Positions 2 through 37,316 of a DNA stretch of 64,000 nucleotides are shown piece by piece. Each line of letters starts with the position of its first letter. Position 1 is the first letter of the stretch. Source of the stretch: Cellulosimicrobium protaetiae (lineage in GTDB: Bacteria > Actinomycetota > Actinomycetes > Actinomycetales > Cellulomonadaceae). The notes below the pieces were generated by a model that saw only the letters and a program-made list of their open reading frames with translations, ran no database searches and had not been told where the DNA came from. Location: the NCBI RefSeq assembly GCF_009708005.2, contig NZ_CP052757.1:2294001-2358000 (forward strand). The letters are read 5' to 3'. Made by a program: the position numbers and the translations under genes.

Positions 2-433
2 ATCGCCGACGTGCAGGTCGAGATGGAGCACATGCGCCCCAACACGGCGATCGCGAAGCTCATCACGCTCAACAACCACCTCACGTCGCTCGACCGCGTG
101 CCGCGCGAGGCCGTCGAGCCGCTCGTCCTCATGACGGCGCCCGTCGCGCCGCACATCGCCGAGGAGCTGTGGCAGCGCCTGGGCCACGAGCGCTCGCTCG
201 CGCACGAGCCTTTCCCGACGGCCGACGAGCGCTACCTCGTCGAGGACACCGTGACGTGCGTGGTCCAGGTCAAGGGCAAGGTGCGCGCCCGCCTGGAGGT
301 CCCGCCGTCGATCTCGGAGGAGGACCTCACGGCTGCCGCGCTCTCGGAGCCGAACGTCGTGCGCGCGATCGACGGCGCGGAGGTCCGCAAGGTCATCGTC
401 CGCGCCCCGAAGCTGGTCAACATCGTCGTCTGA
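2..433 (+). CDS. leuS: leucyl-tRNA synthetase, C-terminal part only
   Basis: This is the last 143 residues of a class I aminoacyl-tRNA synthetase that charges tRNA-Leu; the 5' end lies outside the window. The visible part is the end of the anticodon-binding helical domain (NTAIAKLITLNNHLT near its start, then PHIAEELWQRLG) and the small C-terminal domain with VQVKGKVRARLEVP and a final KVIVRAPKLVNIVV. These motifs are typical of bacterial LeuS. The reading frame is open from base 2 and ends at TGA 431-433. It converges on the minus-strand nuclease gene, and a long palindrome lies 12 bases after its stop. Confidence 0.93.
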   Translation: MADVQVEMEHMRPNTAIAKLITLNNHLTSLDRVPREAVEPLVLMTAPVAPHIAEELWQRLGHERSLAHEPFPTADERYLVEDTVTCVVQVKGKVRARLEVPPSISEEDLTAAALSEPNVVRAIDGAEVRKVIVRAPKLVNIVV

Positions 434-445
434 CGCCCCTTTCGC

Positions 446-502
446 TGAGTGCATGAAATAGTCGCGTCCGACCTGCTCGGGCGCGACTATTTCATGCACT
501 CA
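446..502. repeat. long perfect palindrome, copy A
   Basis: A 21-base arm (446-466, starting TGAGTGCATG and ending AGTCGCG) is followed by a 15-base spacer and its exact reverse complement (482-502). The spacer can extend the stem: CCGA 468-471 pairs with TCGG 477-480. The same arms recur as copy B at 1476-1532, so this is a repeated element and not a chance hairpin. It lies between the convergent ends of leuS and the DUF559 gene and could also terminate both transcripts, though no T-tract follows. The nuclease gene's TGA (500-502, minus strand) is formed by the arm itself. Confidence 0.95.
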
Positions 503-1405
503 CGGGCGGGTGGATGTCCGACGGCGGTCCCGTGCCGCACGCACGCGGCGCACCAGGCGCTCCGGGTGGCGGAGCACGTCGTCGGCCGTCGCCGTGACGA
601 TGATCCAGCCGGCGTCCTCGAGCCGCTGCCGCCGCTCCACGTCACGCCGCCACGTCGCCGGGTCGGTCCGGTGGACGTCGCCGTCGTACTCGATCGCGAT
701 GCGCAGCTCGGGGTAGGAGAGGTCGGGCAGGGCGAGGAACCGACCGGCGTCGTCGTACGCCGGGACGTTCACCTGCGGGCACGGCAGACCGGACTGGACC
801 AGGAGAAGCCGGGTGCGCGTCTCCATGCTCGAGTCCGTCCCCGGCCTGACGAGGTCGATCGCCTCGCGGCACCGCACGATGCCGCGCATCTTGTACGTTG
901 CGTCCAGGAGACGGCGTAGCTCTCGCACGGTCGTGGCAGGGGCCTTCCGCCGGGTCGCGGAGTCGGCGAGCACGACGACGTCGTCCGGCGGGAGCGAGTG
1001 GGACAAGTGCAGCCAGGTCTGGGCTGCGGAGGTCACCGGGAGCCCGTGCGCGGTGGTCGTCGTCAGTGCACGCTGGCCGCAGAAGTGCGCGACGACGTTC
1101 GCCCGCTGCAGCCTCTGGTCGCGGCGCGGCGTCACGACGTGGATCCGGTCGTCGTCGGCGAGCCGCCAGGGCACCTCGATCCCGAGCAGCCGGAGTGCCG
1201 TGACGTGGCTGAACGCCGCGCCGTCGGGCAGTACCCTGGCCGCGGCCCTGCACACGTCGAGGACGGACACGAGGCTCCCGCGCGGGACCCGCACCCCGGC
1301 GAACGGTGCCTCGAGCGAGGGGCTGCGCAGCGACGCGGGCGTCATCCCGAAGGTCTGCGCCGTGCGCGTACGGAAGGGGCGGGTCGGGCTCTGCCGGGTC
1401 ACCAT
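500..1405 (-). CDS. DUF559-type endonuclease with AbiEi-like N-terminus
   Basis: Predicted 301-residue protein. The N-terminal half (PFRTRTAQTFGMTPASLRS, then GVRVPRGSLV and AFSHVTALRLLGIEVP) resembles the winged-helix part of AbiEi/type IV antitoxin-like proteins. The C-terminal half looks like a DUF559 nuclease of the Vsr/PD-(D/E)XK fold: a helix with SSMETRTR (Glu about 195), LPDLSYPELRIAIEYDGDVH (Asp about 228, Glu 239, Asp 241), and a final WIIVTATADDVLRHPERL. The frame stays open up to 1501, but that would translate the palindrome, so ATG 1405 is preferred; it places PFRTRTA near the N-terminus as in related proteins. The gene lies between two copies of one palindrome. Substrate and role are unknown; DNA repair, defence or mobility are all possible. 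Confidence 0.8.
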   Translation of the reverse strand: MVTRQSPTRPFRTRTAQTFGMTPASLRSPSLEAPFAGVRVPRGSLVSVLDVCRAAARVLPDGAAFSHVTALRLLGIEVPWRLADDDRIHVVTPRRDQRLQRANVVAHFCGQRALTTTTAHGLPVTSAAQTWLHLSHSLPPDDVVVLADSATRRKAPATTVRELRRLLDATYKMRGIVRCREAIDLVRPGTDSSMETRTRLLLVQSGLPCPQVNVPAYDDAGRFLALPDLSYPELRIAIEYDGDVHRTDPATWRRDVERRQRLEDAGWIIVTATADDVLRHPERLVRRVRAARDRRRTSTRP

Positions 1406-1458
1406 GCCGACCGAGGATGCCGCCCGCTCCGACCCAGCGAAACCCCGCCCCCCGCGGC

Positions 1459-1467
1459 TGTGGACAA
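1459..1467 (-). promoter_or_regulatory. DnaA-box-like 9-mer
   Basis: The minus strand reads TTGTCCACA, an exact match to the actinobacterial DnaA-box consensus, 9 bases from palindrome copy B and upstream of the nuclease gene. It is a single site, so it may be chance or belong to the nuclease promoter region; it is not evidence of an origin. Confidence 0.35.
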
Positions 1468-1475
1468 CCACACCG

Positions 1476-1532
1476 TGAGTGCATGAAATAGTCGCGCTCA
1501 CCAGGCCCGGACGCGACTATTTCATGCACTCA
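1476..1532. repeat. long perfect palindrome, copy B
   Basis: Arms 1476-1496 and 1512-1532 are base-for-base the same as those of copy A (446-502). The 15-base spacer (1497-1511) differs. The three bases outside each arm suggest the two copies face each other: cgc...cgg around A and ccg...gcg around B. Copy B separates the end of the DUF853 gene (1544) from the nuclease gene (start 1405), both on the minus strand. Confidence 0.95.
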
Positions 1533-1543
1533 GCGAGTCAAGG

Positions 1544-3538
1544 TCAGCGGCGGCGCGTGCCGAAGATGGTGCGGGTGAGCTCGCGGCCGAGCTGGGTGCC
1601 TGCCGAGCGGAGGAACGAGTCGAGCGGGTTCGCCGGGCGGGAGCGCGACGAGCCGGACGAACCCGACCCGGACTGGGGCTTCGCGGCGTCGCGCTCGAGC
1701 TTCGCGCGCATCTTCTCCAGCTCGGCCTGCTCCTTCTTGGCCGCGCGCTCGGCCTCCCTGGCGGCCTCCTTCGCCGCCTTCTCCTGGGCGGCCGCCTCGG
1801 CCTCGGCGGCCGCAGCGGCGGCACGGGCGGCGGCCTGCTCCTGCACCCTGACCTGCAGCAGCTCGAACGCCGACTCGTTGTCGACCGCCGTCCCGTAGCG
1901 CGCGAACCCGGGGGACGCCGCGACGATCCCGTCGAGCACGGCCGCGGGCGCTGGCTCCATCGACGACTGCGGCGCCCGCACGCGGGTCCAGGCCACCGGG
2001 GTCGGCGCGCCCTTCTCCGTGAGGACCGTGACGACGGCCTCGCCCGTGCCGAGCGACTGGAGCAGGCGTTCGAGGTCGTACGGCGAGGTCGGATAGGTGC
2101 GCACGGCCGCTCGCAGGGCCGCGGCGTCGTCGGGCGTGAAGGCGCGCAGCGCGTGCTGGACCCGGTTGCCGAGCTGCGCGAGCACGTCCGCGGGGACGTC
2201 CTTGGGGCTCTGCGTCACGAAGAACACGCCGACGCCCTTCGACCGCACGAGCCGCACCGTCTGCACGACCTGCTGGAGGAACTCCTTCGACGCGCCCGTG
2301 AACAGCAGGTGCGCCTCGTCGAAGAAGAACACGAGCCTCGGCTTCTCCGCGTCCCCGACCTCGGGCAGTTCCTGGAACAGGTCGGCGAGCAGCCACATGA
2401 GGAACGTCGAGAACAGCGCGGGCCGGTCCTGCACCGCGGGGAGCTCGAGCGCGGAGATCACGCCCCGCCCGTCGGGCGCCACGCGCAGCAGCTCCGACGT
2501 CGCGAACGCCGGCTCGCCGAAGAACACGTCCGCGCCCTGCGCCTGGAGCGCGACGATCTCGCGCAGGATGACGCCCGCCGTCGCGCTCGACACCCCGCCG
2601 ATGCCCTTGAGCTCCGCCTTGCCCTCGTCCGACGTGAGGTAGGCGATCGTCGACTGGAGGTCCTTGAGGTCGAGCAGCGCGAGCCCCTGGGAGTCGGCCC
2701 AGTGGACGATCAGCCCGAGGCTCGACTCCTGCGTCTCGTTGAGCCCGAGGACCTTGGAGAGCAGGAGCGGTCCGAAGTCCGTGACGGTCGTGCGGATCGG
2801 CACACCGGCCCCGAGCCCGCCGAGCGAGTAGAACTCGACGGGGAAGGTCGTCGGGCTCCAGGTCTGCCCGATCGACGCCGAGCGCTCCACGATCTTCTCG
2901 TTCGACTCGCCGGGTACGGCGAGCCCGGACAGGTCGCCCTTGACGTCCGCGAGGAACACGGGCACGCCCGCGGTCGACAGTCCCTCCGCCATGCCCTGGA
3001 GCGTCTTCGTCTTGCCGGTCCCGGTCGCGCCTGCGACGAGCCCGTGCCGGTTGAGCATGCTCAGGGCGAACCCCACCTGCACGTCGGCGCGCGGCGTCGG
3101 GTCGGCGCCCGGCTCGCCCTCGAGCAACGCGCCGAGAGCGAGCGTGCCGCCCCGGTAGGCGTAGCCCGCCGCCACCTCGGCGGCGTATCCCTCGAGCGGC
3201 CCGGTGCCCGACGACGGCGCCTCCTCGGCAGGCGCGCTCGCCTCCGCGCCCGGTCCTGCGCCCGACGGCGACGCCCCCTCGCGGGAGCCGCTCGCCTCGG
3301 CGGTGTCGGAGGGCGAGGACGTGCCGGTGGTCCCGGTGGGGTCGCCTGCAACCGTCGCGTCGGCACCCCCGGGAGCCGCGACGTCGGGAGCGGTACCCGC
3401 CTGCGCGGCTGCCTCCGCGGCCTCGAGCGCTGCCTGTGCGGCGACGGCCTTGGCCTCCGCAGCCTCGGCGGCCGCCTGCGCAGCGGCCGCGCGCAGGGCG
3501 GCGAGCTCGATCGGGGACTGTGCGGCGTCGTCGGCCAT
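1544..3538 (-). CDS. DUF853 family HerA-like ATPase
   Basis: A 664-residue P-loop ATPase of the HerA/FtsK-related DUF853 group. Walker A is GATGTGKTKT at residues 170-179; Walker B is RLVFFFDEAHLLF near residue 405. Residues 1-50 are an Ala/Glu-rich predicted coiled coil and 50-115 a low-complexity Ser/Gly/Glu linker. A second charged coiled coil (EAAREAERAAKKEQAELEK region) precedes the conserved tail FLRSAGTQLGRELTRTIFG. HerA proteins are ring-shaped DNA-translocating ATPases; the role of DUF853 members is unsettled. The start is ATG 3538, with TACGAT on the minus strand (3545-3550) 6 bases upstream, so it is probably leaderless. It is divergent from degV. Confidence 0.9.
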   Translation of the reverse strand: MADDAAQSPIELAALRAAAAQAAAEAAEAKAVAAQAALEAAEAAAQAGTAPDVAAPGGADATVAGDPTGTTGTSSPSDTAEASGSREGASPSGAGPGAEASAPAEEAPSSGTGPLEGYAAEVAAGYAYRGGTLALGALLEGEPGADPTPRADVQVGFALSMLNRHGLVAGATGTGKTKTLQGMAEGLSTAGVPVFLADVKGDLSGLAVPGESNEKIVERSASIGQTWSPTTFPVEFYSLGGLGAGVPIRTTVTDFGPLLLSKVLGLNETQESSLGLIVHWADSQGLALLDLKDLQSTIAYLTSDEGKAELKGIGGVSSATAGVILREIVALQAQGADVFFGEPAFATSELLRVAPDGRGVISALELPAVQDRPALFSTFLMWLLADLFQELPEVGDAEKPRLVFFFDEAHLLFTGASKEFLQQVVQTVRLVRSKGVGVFFVTQSPKDVPADVLAQLGNRVQHALRAFTPDDAAALRAAVRTYPTSPYDLERLLQSLGTGEAVVTVLTEKGAPTPVAWTRVRAPQSSMEPAPAAVLDGIVAASPGFARYGTAVDNESAFELLQVRVQEQAAARAAAAAAEAEAAAQEKAAKEAAREAERAAKKEQAELEKMRAKLERDAAKPQSGSGSSGSSRSRPANPLDSFLRSAGTQLGRELTRTIFGTRRR

Positions 3539-9985: not shown

Positions 9986-10027
9986 CACGGAGGGGCGCCG
10001 ACCCGTGCGGGTCGGCGCCCCTCCGTG
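9986..10027. terminator. bidirectional hairpin terminator, holA/rpsT
   Basis: Perfect 19-base arms (9986-10004 and 10009-10027) with a GTGC loop, placed between the convergent ends of holA and rpsT. There is no T-tract, as is usual for such hairpins in high-GC actinobacteria. Confidence 0.85.
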
Positions 10028-37270: not shown

Positions 37271-37316
37271 CGACGACGCCCGGCCGCCTCCCCGCGGAGG
37301 CGGCCGGGCGTCGTCG
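37271..37316 (+). terminator. strong hairpin terminator
   Basis: Perfect 21-base arms (37271-37291 and 37296-37316) with a CCGC loop, 5 bases after the preceding stop codon. A second hairpin with 11-base arms follows (37338-37348 with 37357-37367). No T-tract. Confidence 0.9.

Follow-up and report, generated by a model that had tools for sequence, protein, structure and literature searches.

Lineage-specific palindromes flank a Vsr-like nuclease gene in actinomycetes: a possible REPtron-like module with an unrelated enzyme

A gene for a Vsr-like nuclease in Cellulosimicrobium is enclosed by two copies of one long palindrome, and this locus is one case of a class-wide actinomycete pattern. Sequence comparisons showed that palindromes flank the gene, that their arms match on both sides, that arm and protein diverge together, that each nuclease has one arm family with dispersed cognate copies, and that the presence of such copies differs between species. 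By a modest margin, we favor the interpretation that gene and palindromes form a REPtron-like module based on an unrelated enzyme. The sequences establish association and specificity, whereas binding, cleavage and spreading of the palindrome are inferred.

The window analyzed here, a stretch of 64,000 nucleotides, belongs to a Cellulosimicrobium genome of 4.78 Mb (G000). Its two palindromes (446..502 and 1476..1532; no strand assigned) are 57 bp each (21+15+21), with perfect and identical arms (TGAGTGCATGAAATAGTCGCG). A preceding sequence-only reading had described them as two perfect 21+21 palindromes with identical arms, and its coordinates proved exact. Its statement that the spacers differ also held for the two 15-nt spacers, but many palindrome copies retain extra pairing within the spacer, so that the paired stem often exceeds 21 bp. 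The ORF of the nuclease (500..1501, minus strand) combines an AbiEi-like and a Vsr-like (MTES_1575/DUF559) part; its likely start is the ATG at 1405, giving a protein of 301 aa. The left palindrome marks the 3' end of the nuclease gene, its outer TGA serving as the stop codon, and begins 13 nt after the stop codon of leuS (3' end at 2..433, plus strand). The right palindrome lies upstream of the nuclease gene, 11 nt beyond the stop codon of a gene for a HerA_C-type ATPase (PF05872, previously labelled DUF853; 1544..3538, minus strand). Both neighbors are conserved. When up to three mismatches were allowed, the arm occurred four times in the window and never in 100 shuffles, and DNA folding z-scores of the two palindromes against shuffles were -12.8 and -8.4. 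Besides these, the window has just two strong hairpins (9986-10027 and 37271-37316), both GC-rich, mutually unrelated and terminator-like.

The enclosed gene had been read as a single DUF559/Vsr-fold nuclease gene. This held in the sense of an MTES_1575/DUF559 relative, the window ORF scoring just below both Pfam cut-offs (36.7 versus 38.2 and 18.8 versus 20.6). Among 15 proteins compared, 14 matched the MTES_1575 profile, with the Vsr-like domain at the C-terminus, and 14 matched AbiEi profiles in the N-terminal half, a region predicted to include a winged helix. Conserved acidic active-site residues, as expected of the Vsr or PD-(D/E)XK superfamily, are present in the homologs: D265, E276, D278 and E232 (numbered along the 338-aa frame) do not vary among the aligned sequences, and H282 is conserved in 97%. 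The domain assignment nevertheless leans on weak profile scores. Matches to PDB profiles were weak (3hrl, E 0.011; 3r3p, a mobile intron protein, E 0.18), and a single-sequence structure model, for which no alignment was supplied, was too poor to be used (pLDDT 37). Intact related gene pairs gave dN/dS values of 0.11-0.32, and the nuclease genes are therefore under purifying selection; pairwise values of the L127 pairs and of L140/L141 were ignored as artefacts of frame breaks or locus edges. Homologs were nearly absent from mobile replicons, with six plasmid records and a single phage record, and the reading of these genes as phage or plasmid cargo was rejected on account of these low numbers. 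The phage record (MT837503.1:5022-5930, from human faeces) is a distant homolog with 29% identity.

Homologs were collected from 150 genomes of the same family, and hairpins of any sequence were sought around 72 analyzed genes. Long palindromes (hairpin score ≥15) were present on both sides of 48 of the 72 genes, 44 of which had shared arms. For the other 24, no hairpin was detected on one or both sides, owing either to decay or to incomplete detection. L148 (a G/C run), L186 and L194 were not counted as true matched hairpin pairs, and L146 was just below the threshold. Hairpins occurred in 60.5% of the 150-bp bins adjoining the genes as compared to at most 1.6% of bins more than 300 bp away; enrichment in the first 150 bp was about 60-fold. 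On the 3' side the palindrome overlapped the stop codon of the nuclease gene (median distance -3 nt; 55 genes). Control sequence totalling about 780 kb from two of these genomes contained 109 palindromes, none of which formed a matched pair 600-1800 bp apart. The arms are lineage-specific, with TGAGTGCGTGATTCGGCTGCGAC in genus g44, TTGAGTGCTGGGTATTTGTGG in g7 and TTGTGGGCGCGATTTCTGG in g21. The mean arm score was 20.9 within a gene and 6.7 between genes; summed arm pairing reached 1001, compared with a mean of 336 and a maximum of 477 in 20,000 permutations. Arm similarity followed protein similarity (Mantel r 0.69; largest permuted value 0.13). Arm sequence and nuclease protein thus co-diverge, as judged by sequence comparison.

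In the source genome, arm TGAGTGCATGAAATAGTCGCG is present in 20 palindromes, two at the nuclease gene and 18 elsewhere. Hundreds of arm sites without a link to DUF559 genes would have refuted the initial proposal; with 20 sites and a link recurring across genera this was not the case. All but one of the 20 copies are located within a few dozen nucleotides of a stop codon, as determined with a simple codon-bias gene caller, and many lie between convergent genes. The sequence adjoining the remaining copy (3398508) reads, on direct inspection, as the end of a gene missed by the caller. Flanks of the copies have CGC/GCG motifs in common, with C-rich and G-rich sides. Other DUF559-like genes of this genome lack the arm, and a nuclease relative at 1,993,078 has its own palindrome pair with a different shared arm. 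The TGAGTGCATGAAATAGTCGCG type of arm is also found in other Cellulosimicrobium species. At G000:C1:3817118 (L039) a palindrome is found where other species (L281-L283) carry a stretch of about 2.8 kb with a flavin amine oxidase-like gene that is missing in G000. At the site of solo palindrome 1597756 some species instead contain an insert of about 1.4 kb (L284, G002:C19:173311-174968), whose gene encodes a protein with a start resembling WXG100 proteins, as judged by eye.

The preference for gene ends invites the explanation that the palindromes are ordinary bidirectional terminators homogenized by recombination, with the nuclease as a bystander. Their position at gene 3' ends and compensatory changes that keep both arms paired are in line with it. 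However, ordinary terminator-like hairpins of the same genome are GC-rich singletons, whereas the arms described here are fixed, matched to the neighboring nuclease and co-diverging with it, and we regard this explanation as very unlikely. A second alternative is operator or toxin-antitoxin regulation, in which the AbiEi-like N-terminus binds the palindromes and thereby controls the nuclease gene along with about 20 others. Support for such a role comes from the AbiEi profile matches, from the palindrome upstream of the nuclease start and from the ability of AbiEi antitoxins to bind inverted repeats. It is nonetheless unlikely, given that the other flanking palindrome overlaps the stop codon, that the copies in the source genome adjoin stop codons, that palindrome-bearing genes vary between species, and that the nuclease domain is left unexplained.

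Dispersed cognate copies were not restricted to the source genome. All seven g44 genomes tested carried several copies of the g44 arm, and five genomes from other genera had none. For each of the three nucleases of genome G107, one or more solo palindromes with the matching arm were found within 400 kb, and a 400-kb stretch of G000 likewise contained cognate solo palindromes for both nucleases with paired palindromes. Within one genome, different nucleases thus differ in their arms, and each arm type also has dispersed copies. The same 400 kb of G107 (L325-L344) further contained palindrome families without an identified partner nuclease, for example TGAGTGCGGAGCAGCTGTCGC and CGAGGTAGAGG... 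(three copies each), the latter similar to the arm of the relative at 1,993,078 in G000; it is possible that they point to further nuclease/palindrome pairs in G107. A class-wide search detected homologs in 231 of 395 sampled actinomycete genomes, and about 17 of 27 full-length loci from this set had matched palindromes on both sides (the raw tally of 18 of 29 included short loci, one an artefact). The flanking pattern recurs in other actinomycete families, each with its own arms; a third arm, GTTGATCATGGAG..., was multicopy in another family. Genomes in which copies were counted had roughly 5-45 each. Cognate-type palindromes persist without the cognate nuclease in G005 (C. cellulans NBRC 15516) and G010, and continuous nuclease activity is therefore not required. 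Whether arms are less perfect in nuclease-less genomes was not clear-cut in counts by eye, and no such claim is made. A RAYT as mover of these palindromes was rejected as no match to a Y1/RAYT gene (PF01797) was found in the eight genomes checked, G000 included.

Comparison of loci with homologous flanks showed that they group by protein clade, with 14 locus-label changes on the tree (minimum 12; shuffled mean 41). Exceptions were L142, L156 and cluster c4. Homologs occupy the leuS site in several genera, so the gene is mostly resident, and the suggestion that a small element had inserted between leuS and the ATPase gene is weakened: for the most part this is no recent insertion. Gene orientation at shared loci is opposite in different lineages. 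At the leuS site of G005, an inverted nuclease from another clade carries that clade's arm type; the same site of G006 contains two palindromes around an 88-nt gene remnant, and in several Cellulosimicrobium species the gene is missing there and only one hairpin or palindrome is present. Relatives that always had both palindromes without the gene at this site would have contradicted the proposal, and this was not observed; the single-palindrome sites probably reflect loss or replacement. Taken together, these comparisons show that the gene mostly stays at one locus but is sometimes inverted, replaced or lost. A given intergenic site may carry a solo palindrome in one species and lack it in another, and G008 has a palindrome of another arm type at two compared sites. 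At site D of G002 (L267) and elsewhere, arm changes are symmetric and pairing is kept (e.g. GTGCGGGAAGCAGTCGC on both sides), possibly because one arm was corrected from the other or because pairing is selected. Insertion of a palindrome into the loop of a pre-existing terminator was suggested by one site (G008 versus G011); flank-flank pairing around copies was not locus-specific (p = 0.80), and this idea is not claimed.

These locus histories bear on a third alternative, a mobile IS-like element in which the palindrome-gene-palindrome unit moves and solo palindromes are relics of recombination between palindromes, comparable to solo LTRs. In its favor are the unit size of about 1.1 kb, the single palindrome at the leuS site of gene-less relatives, the decayed gene between two palindromes in G006, and the inverted leuS nuclease of G005 with the arm type of its clade. 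Yet the small number of locus-label changes indicates that genes mostly stay put, no close second copy of the nuclease gene exists within G000, and solo palindromes far outnumber genes. Target-site duplications were not apparent at the compared sites, and the criteria for an insertion sequence or transposon (near-identical copies or target-site duplications) were not met. We consider this alternative unlikely. Even less support exists for defence or self-marking, whereby the palindrome would mark the chromosome so as either to guide a defensive Vsr-like nuclease or to shield against it. Vsr-like nucleases do occur in conflict systems (PMC3710099), and the homologs are patchily distributed. However, PADLOC returned nothing beyond AbiEi-type profiles and weak matches, the genes are chromosomal and mostly locus-stable, and the lineage-specific dispersed palindromes remain unexplained; this reading is very unlikely. 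Each of the four alternatives leaves part of the data unexplained.

In the preferred interpretation, that of a REPtron-like module, a resident single-copy chromosomal nuclease would be coupled to a lineage-specific palindrome found on both sides of its gene and dispersed at gene 3' ends. The N-terminal part of the nuclease would read the arm, and the nuclease domain would nick or cut the palindrome, probably in its extruded hairpin or cruciform form; there are no data on binding or cleavage. Repair of the break may then copy or re-insert the palindrome at other 3'-end sites, although no movement was measured, and the same repair may keep arms and dispersed copies alike. The palindromes probably double as bidirectional transcription terminators, and gene 3' ends would for this reason be tolerant landing sites. 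Points that weigh against the module are the 24 homologs with an undetected hairpin, the palindromes that persist in genomes lacking the cognate nuclease, the missing target-site duplications, the flank pairing that is not specific to a locus, and the weak profile scores behind the domain assignment. Recognition, cleavage or spreading of the palindrome by the protein, as originally proposed, thus remains an inference without biochemical support. A bolder reading, which we rate as slightly less likely than not, posits an undescribed class of palindrome-propagating enzymes. A Vsr-like nuclease with no relationship to HUH transposases would then have acquired, independently of them, the ability to maintain palindromes specific to its lineage and to spread them to gene ends throughout the Actinomycetes.

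To our knowledge, no resident bacterial nuclease other than RAYT is known to co-evolve with a population of small palindromes, as in RAYT/REP. The reason for the persistence of RAYT/REP is unsettled. An unrelated enzyme with the same arrangement, and with homologs in over half of the sampled actinomycete genomes, would make the phenomenon convergent. The lineage series provides matched natural sets of enzyme and substrate for testing, and the system offers a possible function for a common uncharacterized protein family as well as a possible origin of many actinomycete 3'-end hairpins.

No prior description of the present nuclease/palindrome system was found in the open-access literature searched (DUF559, AbiEi, MTES_1575 and one arm sequence). 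Proteins of the DUF559/REase_MTES_1575 type (PF04480, PF18741) have the same C-terminal nuclease domain, and the MTES_1575 domain was named from a giant HEPN/helicase protein (PMC3710099); here, by contrast, the protein is small and stand-alone with an AbiEi-like N-terminus. A palindrome association of such proteins was not described in the papers found. With AbiEi antitoxins of type IV toxin-antitoxin systems the actinomycete proteins share the profile matches, but the AbiEi-like part is fused to a nuclease domain, and the neighbors are leuS and a HerA-type ATPase gene rather than an AbiEii toxin gene. Vsr-like homing endonucleases such as that of PDB entry 3r3p show distant similarity in the nuclease domain and have a selfish nuclease logic in common with the present system. 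Unlike them, it involves no intron or intein, and both flanking palindromes are intact, so that the target was not destroyed by insertion.

The closest counterpart is REP/RAYT (TnpAREP). Its REPtrons are reported to have the cognate palindrome beside the gene as well as in dispersed copies, to pair each palindrome family with one enzyme that co-evolves with it, and to rest on single-copy genes that are mostly inherited vertically (PMC3116915, PMC6006769, PMC8266576). RAYT is a HUH Y1 transposase, whereas in the actinomycetes a Vsr-like nuclease of the PD-(D/E)XK type takes its place, carrying an AbiEi-like N-terminus; with no Y1 transposase in the eight genomes checked, the system does not belong to RAYT. 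A GTAG-type guide was not identified beside the actinomycete hairpins, though no systematic search was made. Their stems are perfect or near-perfect, 20-30 bp long and adjoin stop codons, and the copies per genome contrast with the hundreds found in REP/RAYT. In both systems, a single resident nuclease gene per palindrome family is flanked by this palindrome, of which further copies are scattered outside genes; enzyme and palindrome co-evolve, and one genome may have several such pairs. The gene is in both cases mostly vertical and single-copy, in a unit that does not move, with exceptions in the actinomycetes. The analogy to REP/RAYT with a PD-(D/E)XK-type protein, drawn in the sequence-only reading, thus held in every respect tested by sequence.
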